The notes under the pieces are model-generated. The model was given only the letters and a program-made list of their open reading frames with translations, was not told where the DNA came from and made no database searches. DNA of 54,366 bases from a virus. The DNA lies in IMG/VR virus record IMGVR_UViG_3300009509_000539, positions 1 to 54,366 of that record. One strand, given 5' to 3'. Position 1 is the stretch's first letter. Every line of letters starts with the position of its first letter. Below are positions 3,532-35,523 of the stretch, piece by piece. A program made the position numbers and the translations under genes.

Positions 3532-4854
3532 ATGCAAACCGATAAGGTTCGTGGACAAACAGAACATGTAGCTTTCCTAGATGACGCTCAGGATATCGAG
3601 TATCCCATTGTCAAGGTGGAAGAGCCAGAATATTGTAAGCTCAAGGTTCATTATGAAGCAGATCCGGAAGTTGTAAAAGGCAAGATAGATGAAGCTGTCG
3701 CAACTTTGCGCAAAGCAAGAGTGCCCGGCTTTCGGCCGGGCAAAGCTCCTGATTATGCCATTAAGGCAAGGCTTCGTCCGCAGATCAACAATTACATTGC
3801 CCGAGAGATGGCTACTCACGCTATCGATGATATCGTGTTCGAAACAGATATGAAGCCGATAGGTTTACCCAGGTTCAGCAATATCTCTGTCAAGAACAAC
3901 AAGTTCAAGTGTGATATCGAACTAAATAGAAAACCAGACTTAGAACTGGGTAATTTCAAATTCGAGATCCCGAAGCCGAGAATCGAAACCGATGCAGAGG
4001 CCCTGGCGGAAAAATCACTTTTCAATTTGCGTCTTCGTGTTGGTGAGAGCGAGCCCTATGAAGAAGATGATGTTGTTGAGTTAGGCGATCAAATTACATT
4101 TTCATTCTACGCTACAGTGGAGATGGATGGAAAGGATGAGCCTTTCGAAGGAAGTGTTGTAGAGGGCGAGCTATATAGTGTTGGTTCAAATCGTTGGGGA
4201 GGATTTGATGATAAGCTTCTTGGTATGAAAGCGGATGAGACAAGAGAATTCAAGTTGACATTTGAGACTGGGCCCCAAGAGCTTCTTGGTAAGACGGCCC
4301 ACTTCACTGTGACAGTTCATATGGGTACGAAGCGAAAGCCACATCCCATCAATGAAGAGTTCTACAAGCTGGTGGGCGTGGAGAATATTGAAGAGTTGAT
4401 GGGTAAATTACGCACCATTTCTAAAGCTTCAATAGATAGAAACGAGAAGGAAACGATTCGTTCCCAGGTGGCTATCAAGCTAGTCGAAAGTCACAAGTTT
4501 GATATTCCGCAATTCATGATTGAAGATGAGGCTAAATCTATTGCTGCAAAACATGGTGTTGATTATAATAGTCTCTTTTCCGAGGAAGAAAAGAAAACGT
4601 TCCTAGAGATGGGCGAAAAGAACGTTCGCTTAACTTTGATTCTGGATTCTATCCGAGATAGTGAGCCAGATTCTGTGTTAAATGATACTGAAGCTCAAAA
4701 TCATTTAGCACAACATTTGGCAGCCCAAGGGCAGGATCCTAAAGCTTTGTTTGAGAACAAGGCTTTCCAACCACAGATGGTGGAATTGATAGCTAATATC
4801 AAGGAAGAATTCACTTTGCAATGGGTGGCCGATCAGGCAACACTCATAGAATAG
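3532..4854 (+). CDS. tig: Trigger factor (ribosome-associated chaperone/peptidyl-prolyl isomerase)
   Basis: A complete trigger factor, 440 residues against about 430 in bacteria. The ribosome-docking signature GFRxGxxP is present as GFRPGKAP (66-73). The N-domain follows the usual pattern, with about 20 extra N-terminal residues. Residues about 170-265 form the FKBP-type PPIase domain (VVELGDQITFSFYATV, then FDDKLLGMKADETREFKLTF). The helical C-terminal arms follow (VENIEELMGKLRTI, then DIPQFMIEDEAKSIA). In bacteria this protein binds ribosomal protein L23 at the exit tunnel and shields nascent chains. Here it lies between a phage nuclease gene and small unknown genes, so it is phage-encoded. 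Intact motifs suggest it can bind host ribosomes. Confidence 0.93.
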   Translation: MQTDKVRGQTEHVAFLDDAQDIEYPIVKVEEPEYCKLKVHYEADPEVVKGKIDEAVATLRKARVPGFRPGKAPDYAIKARLRPQINNYIAREMATHAIDDIVFETDMKPIGLPRFSNISVKNNKFKCDIELNRKPDLELGNFKFEIPKPRIETDAEALAEKSLFNLRLRVGESEPYEEDDVVELGDQITFSFYATVEMDGKDEPFEGSVVEGELYSVGSNRWGGFDDKLLGMKADETREFKLTFETGPQELLGKTAHFTVTVHMGTKRKPHPINEEFYKLVGVENIEELMGKLRTISKASIDRNEKETIRSQVAIKLVESHKFDIPQFMIEDEAKSIAAKHGVDYNSLFSEEEKKTFLEMGEKNVRLTLILDSIRDSEPDSVLNDTEAQNHLAQHLAAQGQDPKALFENKAFQPQMVELIANIKEEFTLQWVADQATLIE

Positions 4855-4862
4855 AGGAAGAT

Positions 4863-5234
4863 ATGCCACGTAAGCAGAAGAAACAGAAATCATCAGCACC
4901 AGATGGTTTCCCAGAGAAATCCTGGGATAAGCTAGGTGATACCTGGAGAACAGCCGCAATGTCCAAGCAAACAGATGAGCTTGAACGGGATATTATCAAA
5001 GCGGTTCGTTGTATGTCAAACACGACATTTGAGATGAAAAAAGACCATATTCTCGAAGCTACTGCCAAGAAAGCTCGTGAGCTGAAGAAATACTATACGG
5101 ATACTATCGCAGAGGAGAAAGCAAAGCTAGATTTCTGTGTGTATCTGATGAACACCCGTGGGGTTAAGGTGTCCACTGATGATTCAGATGACACTGATAC
5201 TGACGAGGTGATGGATGAAGCGGCATCTGGTTAA
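4863..5234 (+). CDS. Hypothetical helical protein, 123 aa
   Basis: I do not recognise this protein. The start at 4863 is set by GAGGAAG just upstream, giving MPRKQKKQK; an ATG at 4821 would lack such a site and overlap trigger factor. The N-terminus is Lys-rich, the middle is a probable coiled coil (ARELKKYYTDTIAEEKAKLDF) and the C-terminus is Asp-rich (DDSDDTDTDEVMDE). It follows trigger factor by 8 bases and overlaps the next gene by 20 bases. Confidence 0.6.
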   Translation: MPRKQKKQKSSAPDGFPEKSWDKLGDTWRTAAMSKQTDELERDIIKAVRCMSNTTFEMKKDHILEATAKKARELKKYYTDTIAEEKAKLDFCVYLMNTRGVKVSTDDSDDTDTDEVMDEAASG

Positions 5235-5520
5235 AGGATGTGGTTGTAGTGGAAAGGGGTACGTCTTCGAATTGGACGGCCCCATTTCCAAACGTGCATT
5301 ACCTGTATTTAAACAGGCTGGTTTCAAGACATCCGACATGTATACTAAGGTTGGTGTCTTCTTTGTAGAGAAGAATGGATTAACCGCTAGCGGGCCGTTT
5401 GGTGGCAGTAAAATGCAAGTGCGTTGTGGTGGGGCTGCGAATTGTCATCAATTGCTGGACCATCTTGAAAATACCTTCAAGATAGCAACGGCTTTACCGG
5501 CCCAGGAACCCGGCAAATGA
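5215..5520 (+). CDS. Hypothetical protein, 101 aa
   Basis: I do not recognise this protein. It starts inside the end of the gene before it, with GAGGTG about 10 bases upstream. A KGCGCSGKGY segment near the N-terminus and CGGAANCHQLLDHLE near residue 75 give several Cys/His residues that might bind a metal. The TGA overlaps the ATG of the next gene. It lies upstream of dnaE but has no obvious replication motif. Confidence 0.6.
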   Translation: MKRHLVKGCGCSGKGYVFELDGPISKRALPVFKQAGFKTSDMYTKVGVFFVEKNGLTASGPFGGSKMQVRCGGAANCHQLLDHLENTFKIATALPAQEPGK

Positions 5521-5921
5521 AGATTAGTTTATATTTAGATGACCTTCTCGAAGACTTAGAGGAGTTTAGACCCGGAAGTCTTAGCGATATCTGTCGTTTT
5601 GTTAAAGGATATGAGCATTACAAACCGATCATTATGCTAGCTAGTAACTCGGATCGATCATCTTTGTATTTGTATGGTTTGGGTATTTGCTTGATACAGG
5701 GTGTATGTTCGAGATCTGACTGGGACATAGCAGATGTTCAGTTAGCGGCTGTGTTAGTTTTAATTGGCGAGACTTATGGTTCTCACCATGTCGATCGGTA
5801 CGACAAGTTGTTGTCGAGCGCCTCGTTGGAGTCGGGTAGGTATCATTGGTCGCGAGCTATGGCGGCCAGCTATCTGCTTCACAGAGAGGTGACTAGTGAG
5901 AGATTATGTCAGTCTGCATAA
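5517..5921 (+). CDS. Hypothetical protein, 134 aa
   Basis: I do not recognise this protein. It starts at an ATGA overlap with the gene before it and ends 26 bases inside dnaE. It looks globular and helical, with a hydrophobic central helix (DVQLAAVLVLIGETYG) that is too polar at its edges to be a clear membrane span. The acidic N-terminus (LDDLLEDLEEF) is notable. Coupling to dnaE suggests expression with the replication genes. Confidence 0.55.
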   Translation: MKISLYLDDLLEDLEEFRPGSLSDICRFVKGYEHYKPIIMLASNSDRSSLYLYGLGICLIQGVCSRSDWDIADVQLAAVLVLIGETYGSHHVDRYDKLLSSASLESGRYHWSRAMAASYLLHREVTSERLCQSA

Positions 5922-8643
5922 CCACACGATAGGTTCCATTGGCGATAGTATCATTTCGCCGAGAGAGATAATCCAAGCTACTAAGGAGGCGGGCCAGTCG
6001 GCTGTAGCTGTTACTGACCATGGTTCGTTTTCTAGGCTTTGGGAAACCTACAAAGTGGCAAAGAAAGCCGGCATCAAGTTAATTGCCGGTTGTGAATGCT
6101 ATTTTGTTGATGATGCAGATGATGAGGATGACGTTGCCTTTCGACATTTGGTTCTGTTAGCGAAGAATCAAAAAGGATATCAAAATCTTCTAACTCTCAA
6201 TAAGCGGGGATTTGACAAACAAGCTGTTGCTTTTAAGCGGGCAGTTCCACGCATCGATTGGAAGATGCTTGAAGAGTTCCATGAGGGTCTGATTTGTACA
6301 TCAGCTTGTGGTAATGGGCTGGTTGCACAATATATAATGCGTGACCAGCTGGAGGAAGCGAAGGAAGCTGCGCTTCGTTTACAAGGAATCTTTGGTGACG
6401 ATTTTTGTTTAGAGCTACAGCCGCATAATCTCCAGCGCCGTGCTTCTGGTTATTCTGGTCCAGTGAACCAGCAGAAGATCAATATGGCGCTGAAGAAGAT
6501 TGGGCAGGAAACTAGTATTCGCTGTATCGTGGCGACGGATGCTCATTACGTCAAGAAAGAGCATCACAAGGGTCATGATGTCTATTTATGTATCGCTTCT
6601 AGCCAGCCTATCAATTCTGGCTCTCGTTTGCGGTACGACAAACATGAATTCTACGTCAAAAATGCAGATGAAGTGTATGGATATTTCACTCGTCATATGA
6701 AAATGTGGGGCGAAGAATTCATAGAATCGCTGTTTGAGAACGCTGTGTACTATGCCAATCAGTGTGAGATGGCTGATTGGATTAATCCAGAGGTAAGTAC
6801 AGGCGAAAAATCCCAGCTCCCTGAGTTTCCGTACAAGGATGAGCCGGATTATGAGGAGTTTCAGTGGTGGCAGAGTAGTAAAAGTGAGTACGACATCAAA
6901 GAATTCAAGAAATCTGACATTCCAGAGGATGCTCAGTTCTATCGATACCGTACTGAGAGGGGTTTGGTCCAGAAGATTGACCAGAATAAAATACCGGTTG
7001 CCGATCTTAACGAGTGTATCCAGCAATCATTGGAGGAATTCGATGTTTTTGAGTATCGTGGGTTCTCATCCTATATGCTTATCACTGCTGACTTCCTCAA
7101 TTGGTGCAGGAGAAACAGCATTGCGATTGGACCTGGCCGTGGATCTGTTGGTGGTAGCCTTACCGCGTATGCAAATGGTATCCATCAAGCCTATCCAAAG
7201 CGATATCAGTTGATTTTTGCTCGCTTCCTTAATAAATACAAAGAAGCTTATCCTGATATCGATAATGACATTGCACCTTCTGGCCGTAATAAGCTACATG
7301 ACTACTTGCGCAGTAAGTATGGTGAGGAGAATGTGGCTCACGTTTCGAATATCAACACTATTACACCGAAGGTTTACGCTCGGGATATCGCACGTATATT
7401 CGAATTTGGGGAAAATGGCCGTAGCGCTGCCGCAGAAATCGGTAATAATATCGCTGATTCTATTCCAGATGATATAAAGACTGTTAAAAAAGCCCTATCT
7501 GATGCTCCTCTGTTCGCTGAATATGCCAAACAGTATCCAGAATTAGCGGAGTTTGCTGAATTGTTGTGTGGAAAGCCAAGAGCTTGGTCTACACATGCTG
7601 GTGGTATCGTTATTTCAAAGCGCCCGTTGGAGGGATTGGTTCCACTGCGCCGTGATACTTCTGGTGCTCTAGTGCTGGAGTACGATAAAGAGCTAGCAGA
7701 AGAAAATGGCCTGGTTAAAATCGATACATTAGGCTTGGAGACTTTGGATATCATCGGCGAAACATATAATCTCGTCAGAGAATCTGGCAAAGAAGTGCCA
7801 CAAGAACCCTTTGATTATGAGATAACTGATGATAAATCATACCAACTCATTGGTGAAGGTGATACTTTTGGTGTTTTCCAGCTAGGATCTACTGCGGTTC
7901 CTGTTTGCAAGAAAGTCAAACCGAGGACCGTAGCGGATATTGCATTGGTTTCTGCTCTAGTGCGCCCCGCGGCAAAGGATACCATTCCCGATCTGCTCAA
8001 GGTTAGGAATGGTGAAGAAGAAATGACACTAATGCATCCCACTTTGCATCGCGCATTTGCGGGAACATATGGTTATGGTTTGTATGAAGAGAGTTTGATG
8101 TACCTTGCGCAGGACGTTGCTGGCTGGGATCTGCACGATGCAGACAAGTTGCGCAAGCTTACCAAGGAGAAAGGTAAGAATCCGGAGAAAGTGAAGCAGT
8201 GGAGAGGTGAGTTTATCGAGGGTGCGGTCAAGAACAAGTCCCTTTCCGAAGAGACAGCAACGAAAATCTGGGATGAGACAATAGCACAGTTCGGCGGTTA
8301 CGGGTTTAACAGGAGTTTGTACTTTTCTGAATCGGTTGATATATTCACTTCAGAAGGAGAGTTCATAGCCTCAAAGCCAATCCAAGATGTTCAGCCTGGA
8401 GAATTCGTTCGGTCAAGAGATGAAGATACGGGCGAGGATATTTACATCGAGGTGATTGGCAAACACGATCATGGAGAGTTGGAGGTGGTTGAGGTAGAGC
8501 TTGAAACTGGAGAAAAGGTACGATGCACAATGAATCACAAATTCAGGACAGTAGAAACAGGAGAGATGTTACCATTACATCAGATTCTCAAGGACGGACT
8601 GTCTATTGTTGTAAGCGATGTCACAAAAACTTCTGGGATCTGA
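5896..8643 (+). CDS. dnaE: DNA polymerase III alpha, N-terminal part fused to split-intein N half
   Basis: Replicative DNA polymerase of the bacterial C family. Residues 1-806 are polymerase and 807-915 are the N half of a split intein. The PHP domain is at the N-terminus with metal ligands retained (H8, H10, D17, D41, H42 and a later TDAHY), so proofreading by PHP is possible. The palm has GPGRGSVGGS, D454 and D456 in PDIDND, and D610 in KIDTLGL, which match the three catalytic Asp. The start is GTG at 5896 after GAGG. The polymerase stops at GYGFNR, and the next residues (Ser-Leu, then SVDIFTSEG) begin an intein. The rest of the polymerase is encoded from 9907, so an active enzyme of about 1256 residues requires protein trans-splicing. 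Confidence 0.93.
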   Translation: MRDYVSLHNHTIGSIGDSIISPREIIQATKEAGQSAVAVTDHGSFSRLWETYKVAKKAGIKLIAGCECYFVDDADDEDDVAFRHLVLLAKNQKGYQNLLTLNKRGFDKQAVAFKRAVPRIDWKMLEEFHEGLICTSACGNGLVAQYIMRDQLEEAKEAALRLQGIFGDDFCLELQPHNLQRRASGYSGPVNQQKINMALKKIGQETSIRCIVATDAHYVKKEHHKGHDVYLCIASSQPINSGSRLRYDKHEFYVKNADEVYGYFTRHMKMWGEEFIESLFENAVYYANQCEMADWINPEVSTGEKSQLPEFPYKDEPDYEEFQWWQSSKSEYDIKEFKKSDIPEDAQFYRYRTERGLVQKIDQNKIPVADLNECIQQSLEEFDVFEYRGFSSYMLITADFLNWCRRNSIAIGPGRGSVGGSLTAYANGIHQAYPKRYQLIFARFLNKYKEAYPDIDNDIAPSGRNKLHDYLRSKYGEENVAHVSNINTITPKVYARDIARIFEFGENGRSAAAEIGNNIADSIPDDIKTVKKALSDAPLFAEYAKQYPELAEFAELLCGKPRAWSTHAGGIVISKRPLEGLVPLRRDTSGALVLEYDKELAEENGLVKIDTLGLETLDIIGETYNLVRESGKEVPQEPFDYEITDDKSYQLIGEGDTFGVFQLGSTAVPVCKKVKPRTVADIALVSALVRPAAKDTIPDLLKVRNGEEEMTLMHPTLHRAFAGTYGYGLYEESLMYLAQDVAGWDLHDADKLRKLTKEKGKNPEKVKQWRGEFIEGAVKNKSLSEETATKIWDETIAQFGGYGFNRSLYFSESVDIFTSEGEFIASKPIQDVQPGEFVRSRDEDTGEDIYIEVIGKHDHGELEVVEVELETGEKVRCTMNHKFRTVETGEMLPLHQILKDGLSIVVSDVTKTSGI
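8314..8643 (+). other. Split intein N-half (IntN) in DnaE
   Basis: Residues 807-915 of the upstream dnaE product. Ser1-Leu2 and SVDIFTSEG correspond to intein block A, and VRCTMNHKF to block B (the usual TxxH, here TMNH). The segment ends near DGLSIVV, typical of the end of an N-intein, and stops at 8643. The first residue is Ser rather than the common Cys. The host site, GYGFNR before and SHATLYS after, lies 4 residues downstream of the Y/CFNKSH site used by the cyanobacterial DnaE split intein. Confidence 0.85.
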
Positions 8644-9569
8644 GCAAGGCCGAAACTCATATAATTGAGTGTAAAGCTAAGTTCGATCAGTTACCAGAAG
8701 GTATTGATTTTGTGGTTTGTAAGATATGTGGGTGGCACGCTAAGAGACTGTCTGGTCATCTACATAAAGAGCATGGGATTGATTCGTCTGAATATAATAA
8801 TCCGGTCCTTTGTGAGACTTCAAAGAAGAAGTACGAGGCAGTTGCTCAAGATAATGGTAATTGGATTGAGAAGGCCAAGGCTCGCGGAGAGGATCTTGCA
8901 GAGTACAGAAAGAAAATGGGTAAGGCTCTTAGTGAGTCAATTATATCCAATCCAGAAGATCGAAAGCGTCGAGCGAAGGTGATGGCTGGCGTGAACAAAT
9001 CGGAAGTTATGCGCAAGAAAGCCTCCGAAACAGCTAAGAAAACATCAGCGCGAGAAGATGTACAGGAGAAACGGGCGGCGCAGTTAAAACGGTGGAGAGA
9101 CGAAAATCCAGATAAGTTTTTCAATCAATGTACAAGCAGGATGCTCAGGCCACACTGGCATAGCAAACCAGAGTCTTTGTTGTATGATGTTGTTAGTGAT
9201 AGAGATAACTACAAATTCAAACAAAATCAGGTGGTAAAGTCGAACACGTTTATTTCTAAATCGAAACGAAAACAGGTAGACATCGGAGATAAATCAAGGC
9301 GTGTGTATATTGAATATGATGGCAAACTACATTTTATTCAAACCCGATTAAACCAACTACAGAAAGTTCAGGAAAAGGATCGTCTGTTAGATGAACATAT
9401 CAAGAAACATAGTTGGGTTTTGATTAGGGTGGGATATGATCAATTTTCGTATCGTAAATCGGATTATGGTTTTAAGAAAAAATGTCTTGATAGAGTATTT
9501 GGTATTCTCGACAACCCAACACCAGGGGTTCATTATATAGGAGAGGTTTATGTTTCAAGAGATAGGTGA
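8523..9569 (+). CDS. Homing endonuclease, Vsr-like/EDxHD type, inside the fractured dnaE
   Basis: Encodes a 348-residue protein between the two halves of dnaE and in a different frame. Two zinc-finger-like parts are near the N-terminus: CKRCHK with later H and C, and CKICGWHAKRLSGHLHKEHG, which resembles MucR-type fingers. A long basic helical linker follows. The C-terminal third looks like a Vsr/PD-(D/E)XK nuclease: PESLLYDVV, KQVDIGDKSRRVYIEYDGKLHF, then KDRLLDEHIKKHSW and VLIRVGYDQF. The ATG at 8523 overlaps the IntN coding by 121 bases, with AAGG just upstream; it overlaps the downstream gene by 20. This fits the 'fractured gene' arrangement in which a free-standing Vsr-like endonuclease spreads a split intein. 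The exact start is uncertain. Confidence 0.82.
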   Translation: MHNESQIQDSRNRRDVTITSDSQGRTVYCCKRCHKNFWDLSKAETHIIECKAKFDQLPEGIDFVVCKICGWHAKRLSGHLHKEHGIDSSEYNNPVLCETSKKKYEAVAQDNGNWIEKAKARGEDLAEYRKKMGKALSESIISNPEDRKRRAKVMAGVNKSEVMRKKASETAKKTSAREDVQEKRAAQLKRWRDENPDKFFNQCTSRMLRPHWHSKPESLLYDVVSDRDNYKFKQNQVVKSNTFISKSKRKQVDIGDKSRRVYIEYDGKLHFIQTRLNQLQKVQEKDRLLDEHIKKHSWVLIRVGYDQFSYRKSDYGFKKKCLDRVFGILDNPTPGVHYIGEVYVSRDR

Positions 9570-9906
9570 ATTACAAGGAGGTTTAGTTCCTGATCCTGAT
9601 AAAGAGATTAGTATAGATTCGTTTGTTGAACAATATAAAGAGCGTGCAAAGGAAGCATGTCAAGAGAAAGGATGGTCAGAAGATGTCTGGAGGACATTAG
9701 CTGAGATTTGGGCACAGACTGATATGGATATTTTTCGTGATGTAGCTTATAGTATCAACGGATCGGTGAGGGATGCTATCATTAAACTGGCAAAAAAATC
9801 CAATATCAAAACGGTGCGTCCAGTTGAAAAAGCACAGACATATGATCTTGAGGTGGCCCACCCAGATCATCAGTATTATCTGTCTAATGGGATGTTAACC
9901 AGTAAT
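9550..9906 (+). other. Split intein C-half (IntC) in DnaE
   Basis: The last 25 or so residues show block F (TYDLEVAHPDHQYYLSN) and block G (GMLTSN followed by Ser). The penultimate residue is Ser, not the common His. The half is about 119 residues, far longer than the usual 35-45, because about 80 helical residues precede the block F region. That extra part does not look like polymerase. Confidence 0.82.
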
Positions 9907-11259
9907 AGTCACGCCACCTTGTATAGCATGATTTCATTCCATACGGCGTACCTCAAAGCGAATTACCCCATTGAATTCCTGGTAGCGAACCTGATGTCCG
10001 AGGTTCGGTCCAATGCTAAGGCTGCTAGGGACAACATAACCAAGATTAAGAACGAGATTAGAGCCAGACGTGTGAAGATTGTGCCCCCAGATGTCAATAA
10101 ATCAGGGCTTTCATGGAAGATTGTGGACGATAGAACGCTCATGACTGGCCTAGATTCCCTGAAATTCATGGGTAAGGATGCTATTCCTGAGCTAATTGAG
10201 AAGCGTCCATTCAGTGATTATCAAGATCTAATCTATAGAACCCATTCTCAGAAAGTTCGGTCCCCTAGTATTCAGGCAATGGCTGCATCTGGCAGTCTAG
10301 ATTCGTTTGGAATGGACCGGAAGATCATGTATCACTACGCATCTGACTATCGCGCAAAGCTGCGTAGTCATATGGCCCGCTTGGACAGGGCTTGGGCTAA
10401 GAAATGGGCTGAAGAAAACGATTATGTCAAGGATTCTGATGAGCTTGGTGACTTCTGGAGAGACAAATTCGGCACTCGTTACGAGCCGCCTCCCCCTCCA
10501 GATGATCGGAAGACTGCCCATTTAGCTGAGTTTCACTATCCTTTCCCGGATGAGACACCGTGGACGGTACAAGAACGATTCGCTCTAGAGGAATATTACA
10601 TGGGCGAAGGTATCTCGGGGGATACTTTTGAGCGATACCCAGACTTCTTTGATAGGAAGAAGTCTGTTCCATTCGCTGCACTACCAGAAGCATTCCCTTG
10701 GAGCCTTCAACATGAGGATGAGCGCACCAATCGCAAAGCAAATACACATTACCTTGCTAATCATAAGATGAGACCAATGGAGGCTGTCATCGTTGGTATG
10801 TTTGTCTTCGTGGTAAAAAACGAGGAGTCGCCTATTTTCGGAAAAGAGATGGCCAGATTTACCATTCAAGATCCTTGGGGTGATGAATCTACATTGCTCG
10901 CTTTCCCAGAGGGCTGGGAGGAGATGAAGAATCGAATTGGGAAAGAGTTATCGAATGGTCAGAAGATTGAGCCGGGACTAGCAATCAGATTTATTGGGCA
11001 GTTTCAATGGGAAACCGAGCACACAACATCTTTTGTGCTGGGTGATATATTGGATTTTAAAGCGCCTCCGAGTCTTCCCGAGGACTATCGATGTTCTAAG
11101 ATGGTAAAGATGCCGAGAACTAAGAAAGTTAAAGCAGAAGAGATAAGTTCATCTACAATGAGCGATGTCTTGGAACAATTAGAAGATGAAATGCTGGATA
11201 ACGGGTTATCTTCTGTAGATGATGAAGATGATGAGGTTGATAGTTACGATTTTAGTTGA
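9550..11259 (+). CDS. dnaE: Split-intein C half fused to DNA polymerase III alpha C-terminal part
   Basis: Residues 1-119 contain the C half of the intein, ending in Asn119. Residues 120-569 are the polymerase from SHATLYSMISFHTAYLKANY onward. The extein carries the finger/tandem HhH-type region (MAASGSLDSFGMDR), an OB-fold segment near residues 415-505 (VIVGMFVFVVKNEESPIFGK) and an acidic tail (DDEDDEVDSYDFS). The start is well marked: AGGAGAGG lies 3 bases before the ATG, so this half is translated independently. Trans-splicing to the 5896-8643 product would join GYGFNR to SHATLYS. The polymerase total of about 1256 residues is normal for DnaE. Confidence 0.92.
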   Translation: MFQEIGELQGGLVPDPDKEISIDSFVEQYKERAKEACQEKGWSEDVWRTLAEIWAQTDMDIFRDVAYSINGSVRDAIIKLAKKSNIKTVRPVEKAQTYDLEVAHPDHQYYLSNGMLTSNSHATLYSMISFHTAYLKANYPIEFLVANLMSEVRSNAKAARDNITKIKNEIRARRVKIVPPDVNKSGLSWKIVDDRTLMTGLDSLKFMGKDAIPELIEKRPFSDYQDLIYRTHSQKVRSPSIQAMAASGSLDSFGMDRKIMYHYASDYRAKLRSHMARLDRAWAKKWAEENDYVKDSDELGDFWRDKFGTRYEPPPPPDDRKTAHLAEFHYPFPDETPWTVQERFALEEYYMGEGISGDTFERYPDFFDRKKSVPFAALPEAFPWSLQHEDERTNRKANTHYLANHKMRPMEAVIVGMFVFVVKNEESPIFGKEMARFTIQDPWGDESTLLAFPEGWEEMKNRIGKELSNGQKIEPGLAIRFIGQFQWETEHTTSFVLGDILDFKAPPSLPEDYRCSKMVKMPRTKKVKAEEISSSTMSDVLEQLEDEMLDNGLSSVDDEDDEVDSYDFS

Positions 11260-32598: not shown

Positions 32599-35523
32599 AT
32601 GAAACCAGGAGAAATAGGATTCTCCGCACTGTTTGAACAGTTCCGAGATAGCATAATGCGTGTCGATCCTGTGTATTTCTGCGCGAAGTACTTGACGATC
32701 GATGGCGGTAAGCCGCTAGACTTGGAAAAGTCAGGATATAAACCTTTTGCGGACATTTACAGGTATATTGGACTTTCAGCAATTGAACCAAATGCCAAAC
32801 CAATTGTATTAGTTAAGGGCAGGCAGGTAGGTGCAACCACCATGGCCGCTGCCCTTGAATGTTATTTCACTGCATGTGGATTGTTTGGAAATAATCAGCG
32901 CCCACCTATGCGATTGATCCATCTATTTCCCACGTTGTCTTTGGCCGCTGCATACACCAAAGACAAGCTGGACCCGATTCTAGGTGAGGCCAGAGCAGTT
33001 CCAGGTACCATGAAAACCAATGGACTCCCCAAGTCCTACATGGAGAACGTCATGGATCTGGGAAGTCCCAGTAATAACAACATGCATTTCAAGAAATTCT
33101 TGCATGGTAATCAGCTCTGGATTGAATCAACTGGTCTAGATGGTGACCGTATTCGTGGTCGTCAACTTTGCTTAGAAACAGAATTACCAACACCTGATCG
33201 TGGTTTTGTCAAATTGAAGGATTTGAGAGAGGGTGATAGGCTTTTTGATGAAAATGGTAATGTTTGTAACGTCATTAAAGTTCATCCAATTCAATATTCT
33301 CCAGAGTCTTATCGTGTAACATTTGATGATGGAACTCAGATAGATGCTTGTGCAGAACATCTATGGAAAACTCATACTCGTTATGAGCGAAAGAACGGAA
33401 AAACCCTTGGGATTAGGAACACAAAAGAACTCCTTAATACTCTTACAATGTCTGGTGAAAGTAATCATTCAATTCCTGTTTGTGGTCCGGTACACTATCC
33501 CAAGCAAATATTAGATATTGATCCGTATCTTTTAGGTTTGTGGTTGGGTGATGGTGATAGATATGGCAGAATAGAGACCGCAGATGTTGAGGTTTTGGCT
33601 GGTTATGACCACAGATTGATTGCATCTTCTGTAAACCATGAGAGTAATTTCGGCACATCTAAATCAAATTCGTATAGGGTTATTGGCCTTACGACAGCTT
33701 TGACTAAGTTAGGATTGGTTTACAACCCAGGAAAGAAACTAAGAGATGAAGGACGAGGGTATTATAACAAGAGAATTCCCAGGCAATATCTTGAGGCATC
33801 TTTTGAACAAAGACTAGATCTTCTCCAGGGACTTATGGATGCAGATGGTTGCTGCGATAAGGATGGTCGTTGTGAGTTTGTACAATGTGATGATAGAAAA
33901 GAATTGATTAAAGATGTTCAAGAGCTTATTCATTCTCTCGGTATTAAAACATCAATGTACAAAAAAGAGTCTTGGCGGTATAATGTAAAATACCAGGATA
34001 AATGGTCCTTGCAGTTCTATACTACTCTGCCAGTTTTCAAACTTGAGAGAAAGCTTCAAAACATCAAAATTAAACTTACAAAATCGAATAAAAGGTTTAT
34101 CAAATGTATAGAGCCTATTGATCCAAAACCGATGAGGTGCATCACGGTAGACTCCCCATCACATTTATATTTGGTAACTAAGTCGTACATTCCGACTCAT
34201 AATACAGCCGATTGCGCATTGTTTGACGAAGTGCAGGATATGTCTGACGTTGCTATTGGTGCTGTCACCAAGATTCTTGCTCAGTCTCGTTATGGTTCTA
34301 CCGGTGAAGGTGTTCAGGTTTATTTTGGAACACCCAAGACCAAGGCCGGATCTTACTATGAAATGTGGCGGAATTCTAATCAGCAGTACTACCATCTGCG
34401 CTGTGAGAGATGCGGAAAGTATTTCCCTCTGTATCGTCCTGATGTGAACTGGGAAGATATTTGGCTCTATGGAATGACTGTCCGTTGTACAGAGTGTAAT
34501 CACGAGCAGGATAAGTTAGATGCACAAGAAAGAGGCAGATGGATTCCGCTCCAAACAGTGAATGACGATGGTAGGGAACCTGATTACGTGGGGTACCACT
34601 ACAATCAATTACTTATTCCTAAATTCACAAGAGAGGTTATTAATAAGGCCAAACCGGAACGTAGCCCTATCAACACTGAGCGTGTGTACATGAACGAGGT
34701 ACTTGGAGAGTTCTATGATGGCGAAGGCGGTACCATTACCGCCGAAGAGATTCGCGAGAAGTGTATTGAGAAAGGCCGCAAGATGGTGAAGTATATTCAC
34801 CGTGATAGTGGTAAGCGTGTCTATGGTGGTTTTGACTGGGGCCAGAGAGGAATGCTCGATCAAATTGCCGGTCGTGGACGTAAAGGTTCCTACAGCTGTG
34901 CGGTTATTTTAACAGTTGAAGGAAATATATTTAATATCGAGTTTGCCACCCGTTTAATGAAGACCGATCCAGAACACAAAGAGGCGGCGGTTGAAGAGAT
35001 GTTCCGGCGTTACAATTTGACTCTTGCCGTGGGTGATATTGGTGATGCCTACGATCTAACACATAGATTACAAAAAACATATAATGAAAGGTTCTTGGCT
35101 TCTCGTGCTCAGCATAAAGTAATTGGACATGTTAAATACTCCAAAGATGAATGGCCGAAGACAATAGTTTTTGAGAAAGATTATTATATTGGAGAAGTTC
35201 TTGGTCTATTAAAAGAAGGAAGAATTAAGTTCCCAGGAGGACATCATCACAAAATTTCTTGGTTAATTGAGCATTGTTCAAGTATGGACATCAAAGTTAC
35301 CAAGGATAAGTCATTTGAGCCCCGTAAAAGGTATGTTAAGGGAACGGGCGCAAACGACGGTCTGATGGCGTTATTAAACGCCTATTTAGCCTGGAAATTC
35401 GATATAACTCAGCGTTTCTCAATTAAGAATCCAATTCACATGAAATATGAGCTGGCCGAGAATGCTCGTCCCATTCAGGCGGTTGTTGGGTATATTCCTA
35501 GAATGTTCAACGGCCGTGGATGA
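32599..35523 (+). CDS. terL: Terminase large subunit precursor, interrupted by an intein
   Basis: The packaging motor ATPase and nuclease. Walker A-like GRQVGATT is at 74-81 and Walker B CALFDE (539-544 in the precursor) lies right after the intein. The nuclease domain has FDWGQRG, VGDIGDAYD and a final GANDGLMALLNAYLAW. A zinc ribbon (CERCGKYFP and CTECNHEQ) after the ATPase domain is like that in GpA-type terminases. Residues 191-535 are the intein; without it the protein is 629 residues, normal for TerL. The intein sits between RIRGRQL and TADCALFDE, next to Walker B. The portal gene follows 23 bases after the stop. Confidence 0.93.
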   Translation: MKPGEIGFSALFEQFRDSIMRVDPVYFCAKYLTIDGGKPLDLEKSGYKPFADIYRYIGLSAIEPNAKPIVLVKGRQVGATTMAAALECYFTACGLFGNNQRPPMRLIHLFPTLSLAAAYTKDKLDPILGEARAVPGTMKTNGLPKSYMENVMDLGSPSNNNMHFKKFLHGNQLWIESTGLDGDRIRGRQLCLETELPTPDRGFVKLKDLREGDRLFDENGNVCNVIKVHPIQYSPESYRVTFDDGTQIDACAEHLWKTHTRYERKNGKTLGIRNTKELLNTLTMSGESNHSIPVCGPVHYPKQILDIDPYLLGLWLGDGDRYGRIETADVEVLAGYDHRLIASSVNHESNFGTSKSNSYRVIGLTTALTKLGLVYNPGKKLRDEGRGYYNKRIPRQYLEASFEQRLDLLQGLMDADGCCDKDGRCEFVQCDDRKELIKDVQELIHSLGIKTSMYKKESWRYNVKYQDKWSLQFYTTLPVFKLERKLQNIKIKLTKSNKRFIKCIEPIDPKPMRCITVDSPSHLYLVTKSYIPTHNTADCALFDEVQDMSDVAIGAVTKILAQSRYGSTGEGVQVYFGTPKTKAGSYYEMWRNSNQQYYHLRCERCGKYFPLYRPDVNWEDIWLYGMTVRCTECNHEQDKLDAQERGRWIPLQTVNDDGREPDYVGYHYNQLLIPKFTREVINKAKPERSPINTERVYMNEVLGEFYDGEGGTITAEEIREKCIEKGRKMVKYIHRDSGKRVYGGFDWGQRGMLDQIAGRGRKGSYSCAVILTVEGNIFNIEFATRLMKTDPEHKEAAVEEMFRRYNLTLAVGDIGDAYDLTHRLQKTYNERFLASRAQHKVIGHVKYSKDEWPKTIVFEKDYYIGEVLGLLKEGRIKFPGGHHHKISWLIEHCSSMDIKVTKDKSFEPRKRYVKGTGANDGLMALLNAYLAWKFDITQRFSIKNPIHMKYELAENARPIQAVVGYIPRMFNGRG
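33169..34203 (+). mobile_element. Intein with LAGLIDADG homing endonuclease in TerL
   Basis: 345 codons in frame inside terL. It begins with Cys191 (CLETELPTPDRGFVKL), ends in THN before Thr536, and has the penultimate His. Block B-like and block F-like (ITVDSPSHLYLVTKSYI) regions are present. Two LAGLIDADG motifs are visible: LLGLWLGDG (residues 311-319) and LLQGLMDADG (408-417), separated by about 90 residues. It is a full, probably active, self-splicing element with a homing endonuclease. Confidence 0.92.

Follow-up and report, generated by a model that had tools for sequence, protein, structure and literature searches.

A replicative polymerase gene that is present in two pieces raises the question of how a complete enzyme can be obtained from it. 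Such a gene is found in IMG/VR virus record IMGVR_UViG_3300009509_000539, of which the whole stretch from position 1 to 54,366 was analyzed (54,366 bases; hereafter the window). The contig belongs to a tailed phage, with terminase large subunit, portal, head protease, UvsX, primase, and exonuclease families, and contains dnaE, the gene of the alpha subunit of DNA polymerase III, as two genes that carry the N-terminal (IntN) and C-terminal (IntC) halves of an intein and flank one homing endonuclease (HEN) gene in another frame. The best explanation, which we hold with a probability of about 0.88, is a fractured dnaE: a mobile intein at the FNx/SH site (the slash marks the insertion point) that is split at the usual endonuclease loop, with a free-standing EDxHD endonuclease gene in the gap, trans-splicing to a polymerase of 1256 amino acids (aa), and homing.

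The three open reading frames (ORFs) and the intein junctions (Table 1) are as proposed by an earlier reading of the letters and translations (the sequence-only reading), which had omitted the overlap of 118 nucleotides (nt) between IntN and HEN, an 84-codon extension of IntC, and the long N-terminal part of HEN. The junctions read GYGFNR/SLYF and MLTSN/SHATLYS. Deletion of positions 8314-9906 restores GYGFNR/SHATLYS, and the spliced DnaE would consist of 806 + 450 = 1256 aa, in agreement with the length of about 1256 residues predicted before. An IntN/HEN overlap of the same kind occurs in L010 and L011, the closest related loci, and the chance of an open HEN frame in these 118 nt, given IntN, is 0.007. 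Covariance models for group I and II introns and other Rfam families found no match around the insertion, and an intron as the cause of the interruption was rejected on this basis.

The main splicing residues Ser1, TxxH (TMNH), the terminal Asn, and Ser+1 are all present, as are the conserved intein blocks A, B (TMNH), F (YDLEVxHPDHQYYLSNG), and G (LTSN/S). IntN matched the Pfam families Hint (3.6e-4) and Intein_splicing (6.7e-4), both under the curated cut-offs, and a profile built from three relatives, which includes 24 flanking residues of the N-extein, matched solved DnaE inteins in the PDB over the intein positions with an E-value of 2.3e-8. The identity to the IntN of nine relatives is 53-85%; the single Cys of the window IntN lies outside the catalytic positions. 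For L111, a contiguous homologue, both Hint halves were modeled with confidence, and the model matches the NpuDnaE and SspDnaB inteins; the Hint fold across both halves is read from this L111 model. By these sequence hallmarks the assignment of the dnaE-borne element to the class 1 split inteins, as proposed by the sequence-only reading, is supported, and ligation in trans is predicted.

Comparison of the window with L010, L011, and L024 revealed proportions of synonymous differences (pS) of 0.5-0.9, i.e., high to saturated, and of nonsynonymous differences (pN) of 0.06-0.24 in IntN, HEN, and IntC, comparable to or below those of the exteins. Since synonymous divergence (dS) is near saturation even between the closest relatives, exact ratios of nonsynonymous to synonymous divergence (dN/dS) are not quoted for most parts. 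The intein halves thus are constrained at the protein level with their catalytic residues intact, and are very unlikely to be pseudogenes with degraded motifs. Split relatives without HEN (e.g., L033, L082, and L100) retain both halves with stop codons in every frame between them, which makes read-through impossible in these loci.

The endonuclease consists of two zinc-binding motifs, a helical middle part, and a C-terminal nuclease domain, its long N-terminal part being DNA-binding-like. In an alignment of ten HEN homologues, D253, H270, and D286 are invariant and E217 is nearly so; from this alignment and the predicted fold, these residues are proposed to form the EDxHD set. The structure predicted for residues 213-348 has a predicted local distance difference test score (pLDDT) of mostly >90 in the nuclease domain, which matched Vsr (Z 12.0 and 11.1), the catalytic domain of I-Bth0305I (10.7), and a putative endonuclease-like protein (10.0), with the next matches at 8.7 or below. 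The predicted structure thus supports a putative endonuclease of the Vsr-like/EDxHD family, as the sequence-only reading had suggested. HEN shares the catalytic domain fold and the acidic/His set with I-Bth0305I and other EDxHD homing endonucleases and with Vsr, but is only about 14% identical, has an N-terminal paired zinc-binding region and a helical linker, and is not intron-encoded. Searches of known phages with HEN and with IntN gave no match, so that public isolates are without close kin, and PHROGs gave weak, uninformative matches at most.

Profile scans retrieved 24 HEN loci and 66 IntN-like loci, counts that include repeats of the same contigs, from a sample biased by the use of conserved peptides of the window's intein family as queries. 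More than 40 related split loci occur at the same dnaE site in viral contigs, and the site is filled by an intein in more than 50 such contigs and in the Rhodococcus phages NiceHouse, Weasels2, and Dorin (contiguous mini-inteins with Cys1 and HN); the earlier description of the polymerase site as unusual was thus overstated. The same three-part arrangement with homologous parts recurs in many independent contigs and thus is no chance layout. In L010 and L011, whose HEN are 68% and 67% identical to that of the window, dnaE is fractured alike, with the HEN start inside IntN. A tree of DnaE exteins was calculated with 54 intein-bearing representatives at the FNx/SH site and 17 intein-free sequences after removal of repeats. 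Position +1 is Ser in 54/54 of the intein-bearing members and position 1 is Ser in 29/54, Cys in 19/54, and Thr in 6/54, so that Ser1, likewise called unusual before, is the commonest first residue in the family. Thr, an unusual first residue, is found in L034, L068, L111, L087, L089, and L092.

On this tree the intein-free loci L012 and L013, both with an exact empty site, adjoin the window, and L012 reads GYGFNR/SHATLYS, with exteins 83% identical to those of the window and 39/40 identical flanking residues. At least 11 changes between presence and absence of the intein are required. HEN is more similar than the exteins between the window and L024 (64 vs. 57%) and less similar between the window and L031 (55 vs. 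73%), as lateral movement predicts. The exact empty site and the related split loci show that the intein/HEN unit is a mobile and maintained element.

Other nucleases occupy the same split site in some relatives. A second EDxHD/DUF559-type group, of which part of the members were scanned, was found in L110, L114-L123, and L125, and inspection by eye indicated a 661-aa zinc-finger-like, nuclease-like protein in L078 (5303-7288) and a LAGLIDADG-like protein in L133 (5204-6358), both between split intein halves at this DnaE site. The same fractured dnaE occurs in L070 (contig DITM01000084.1 of a metagenome-assembled genome), which was binned as a Paracaedibacteraceae bacterium and is possibly a phage or prophage contig. 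In L026 (668-6182) DnaE is fractured twice: the N part carries a Cys1 IntN (ending at 2248), and the middle part has its own IntC (starting at 2430) and a second IntN, followed by HEN and by IntC with the C part, which is broken again at 5285/5394 where no intein is present. Assembly of this DnaE would need two different split inteins. In L031 (1311-5378) and L034 (1275-7148), another full-length intein, also contiguous, interrupts the same DnaE further upstream (site GRG/C...HN/SVGGS), and the window itself carries a contiguous 345-aa intein with a LAGLIDADG domain in its terminase large subunit gene (33169-34203, + strand; Cys1, HN, Thr+1).

Five states of the FNx/SH site were distinguished among the relatives: empty (intein-free relatives, e.g., L012 and L013); occupied by a contiguous (cis) mini-intein (L102, L112, L121, L124, and the Rhodococcus phages); occupied by a contiguous intein that contains, in the +1 frame, an intact homologue of HEN (L034/L035, L068, L111, and L126); split with HEN (the window and about 28 others); and split with HEN gone or reduced to remnants (L033, L077, L082, L087, L095, L100, L101, and L103). 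In the third state the intein frame is free of stops across the 273-325 HEN codons. Synonymous shuffles of HEN contained on average 24-28 stops when based on the codon usage of the gene and 12-19 when based on that of HEN itself, and none of 3000 shuffles was without stops; selection thus maintains the unbroken frame. Over its entire span, L111 scores above the Pfam intein cut-off, and in its model the pLDDT reaches about 90 or higher in both Hint halves and is <50 in most of the loop. A comparison of L034 with L068 gave identities of 48% in the HEN frame and only 24% in the loop as read in the intein frame; this loop resembles a passive translation of HEN. L102 (cis, without HEN) and the split L052 (with HEN) have exteins that are 89% identical, indicating that states interconvert over short distances. 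The tree requires at least five changes between cis and split; being midpoint-rooted and having several long branches, it does not establish their direction.

Table 1. Features of the fractured dnaE in the window and of contiguous inteins with an out-of-frame endonuclease in related loci.
Feature	Position	Strand	Evidence or remark
dnaE-N gene (N-extein + IntN)	5896-8643	+	GTG start, 915 aa
DnaE N-extein, 806 aa (PHP, palm, fingers up to GYGFNR)	5896..8313	+	Pfam PHP 2.7e-40, DNA_pol3_alpha 9.2e-59, finger (DNA_pol3_finger) 2.3e-33; PDIDND motif intact
IntN, 109 aa (Ser1, block B TMNH)	8314..8640, stop 8641-8643	+	Weak Pfam matches, PDB profile, homologues
Shine-Dalgarno-like ggag...aagg ahead of HEN start	8509..8518	+	Read from sequence
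HEN gene, free-standing, 348 aa, frame +2 relative to dnaE	8523..9566, stop 9567-9569	+	ORF, family alignment, Vsr/I-Bth0305I fold
Dual-coding IntN/HEN overlap, 118 nt	8523..8640	+	HEN start codon inside coding region of IntN block B (cgATGCACAATGAATCAC)
HEN zinc-binding region (C30 C33 H46 C50 and C66 C69 H79 H84)	8610..8774	+	(Nearly) invariant in family alignment; weak ROS_MUCR match 6e-4
HEN catalytic domain (proposed EDxHD set E217, D253, H270, D286)	9159..9566	+	Conservation and fold
Shine-Dalgarno-like aggag ahead of IntC ORF, inside HEN tail	9539..9543	+	Read from sequence
dnaE-C gene (IntC + C-extein), 569 aa	9550-11259	+	ORF; matches DnaE HHH domain
IntC N-terminal extension, 84 codons	9550..9801	+	Codon usage; this genome only
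IntC core, 35 aa, ...YDLEVAHPDHQYYLSNGMLTSN, terminal Asn at 9904-9906	9802..9906	+	83-89% identical to L010 and L011
DnaE C-extein, 450 aa (Ser+1 codon at 9907; SHATLYS..., HHH and downstream domains)	9907..11256	+	Pfam HHH_6 2.3e-15
L034, unbroken DnaE intein	5064-6194		Loop encodes endonuclease in +1 frame
L068, unbroken DnaE intein	4478-5635		Loop encodes endonuclease in +1 frame
L111, unbroken DnaE intein	4965-6248		Loop encodes endonuclease in +1 frame
L126, unbroken DnaE intein	5001-6338		Loop encodes endonuclease in +1 frame

The IntC extension is a new feature of the window locus. In relatives IntC starts with M(S/T)NIK or nearby, whereas the window reads KSNIK at that place. Here the open frame extends upstream by a further 84 codons and reaches an ATG whose good Shine-Dalgarno-like site lies in the HEN tail. 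Codon usage favors the extension frame (score 0.18 vs. -0.96 and -0.44), and a stretch this long would be open by chance with a probability of about 0.001. In L010, L011, and L031 the sequences at this position are short and variable, and IntC has a separate start; no homologue of the 84 aa was found among the related loci or in phages. The extension would leave with the excised intein.

Several observations weigh against a fractured dnaE that is spliced in trans and spread by homing. The extension of IntC by 84 residues is unusual and could slow the association of the intein halves. The penultimate residue of block G is Ser, as in 52/54 family members, and not the usual His, which assists class 1 splicing without being strictly required. 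The Foldseek E-value of the nuclease alone is modest (7e-3), and the approximately unbiased (AU) test does not reject an extein-like grouping of HEN (p 0.24). Given this p value, discordance between the HEN and DnaE trees was dropped as proof of homing, the identities being suggestive, and lateral movement thus rests on the patchy distribution and not on tree conflict.

Three other explanations compete with trans-splicing. The endonuclease may have broken dnaE, with products that assemble non-covalently and intein halves that persist as relics. According to a passage in PMC10448857 (citing Friedrich 2007), a phage nrdA that a homing endonuclease has split does work in pieces, and the intein-free break in the C part of L026 would fit as well. 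Relics would decay, however, whereas IntN and IntC are under protein-level constraint and Ser/Cys/Thr1, TxxH, Asn, and Ser+1 are retained family-wide; the break furthermore falls inside the conserved GYGFNxSH motif, and we regard this explanation as improbable. Still less credible is one polyprotein produced by two programmed frameshifts, from IntN to HEN and from HEN to IntC, and spliced in cis. It would require two shifts of opposite sign and is at odds with the Shine-Dalgarno-like sites ahead of both inner starts, the non-overlapping HEN and IntC of L010 and L011, and the HEN-less split loci with stops in all frames between the halves, even though the three window ORFs overlap and relatives possess cis inteins with an out-of-frame HEN.

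A decaying element, either a pseudogenised intein or an assembly chimera, would account for the loss of the relatives' IntC start codon in the window and for the frameshifted HEN of one relative (L069). Yet all frames are open, codon usage backs the IntC extension, the catalytic residues are intact under strong constraint, and the same structure occurs in L010, L011, L031, and others; decay appears about as implausible as frameshifting. On the preferred explanation of a fractured, trans-spliced dnaE, three proteins would be translated: DnaE-N-IntN, the endonuclease from its start inside IntN in the other frame, and IntC-DnaE-C. IntN and IntC would associate, Ser1 would attack first, Ser+1 would form a branched ester, and cyclization of Asn would release the joined DnaE. 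The polymerase is presumed, reasonably, to be active only after trans-splicing. The endonuclease would cut the intein-free dnaE of co-infecting relatives, for which the natural empty site of L012 is a candidate substrate, and repair would copy the entire 1593-bp unit into the cut gene.

A class of fractured genes, which combine a split intein with a free-standing, Vsr-like homing endonuclease, was reportedly described by Dassa et al. in 2009. The window dnaE is a further case of this class, as recognized by the sequence-only reading: a split intein interrupts an enzyme gene, and its halves are separated by a free-standing gene for a Vsr/EDxHD endonuclease. Differences are the HEN start, which lies within IntN in another frame, and the 84-codon extension of IntC. 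The cyanobacterial DnaE split intein (Ssp/Npu DnaE) sits at nearly the same place and its structures are matched by the IntN profile of the window family; it is inserted before CFNK, 4 residues upstream of the window site, uses Cys1/Cys+1, and has its halves far apart in the genome. The window intein lies 4 residues downstream, as noted earlier (GFNR corresponds to CFNK), has Ser1/Ser+1 and an endonuclease gene, and its halves are adjacent. The cysteine-less split inteins Aes123 PolB1, CP21, and LCGC14 PolB share Ser1 with Ser+1, a canonical IntN of about 110 aa, and a replicative polymerase host, but the window host is DnaE (family C) instead of PolB, its IntN contains one non-catalytic Cys, and it carries HEN. 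Natural Ser1/Ser+1 split inteins have been called a rare class (PMC13014065).

Literature searches for papers on the dnaE site or on phage split inteins, whose coverage is incomplete, found nothing on the window locus and one precedent for an out-of-frame endonuclease in an unbroken ORF, the ShiLan domain, an out-of-frame HNH insertion in a phage methylase (PMC11855218). As in L034, L068, L111, and L126, this homing endonuclease and the uninterrupted ORF that hosts it use different frames, but no intein is involved and the insertion is thought to be retained in the protein, whereas the out-of-frame gene of the relatives sits in the loop of a recognizable intein and encodes an EDxHD nuclease. 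No description was found, within the same limited coverage, of an out-of-frame endonuclease in a recognizable intein as a neighbor state of fractured genes, and the novelty of this state is unproven.

Studies of intein evolution have yet to explain how an essential gene comes to be broken and then survives by means of a split intein. The cis inteins with an out-of-frame HEN, together with the split and cis forms without HEN, suggest a series that bears on how split inteins arise. There is an even chance, in our estimation, that fractured genes represent one stage in a reversible cycle, leading from a cis mini-intein to an unbroken intein with an out-of-frame HEN, to a split intein after a stop has arisen, to a split intein without HEN, and by refusion back to cis (L102 beside the split L052). 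If this is true, the out-of-frame stage would let HEN enter and leave and the intein split and refuse while the polymerase is retained. Since relatives exist in every state (empty, cis, cis with out-of-frame HEN, and split with or without HEN), these steps are directly testable, and for practical use the family is a source of numerous natural split inteins of the Ser1/Ser+1 type, together with a family of nucleases that have natural targets.

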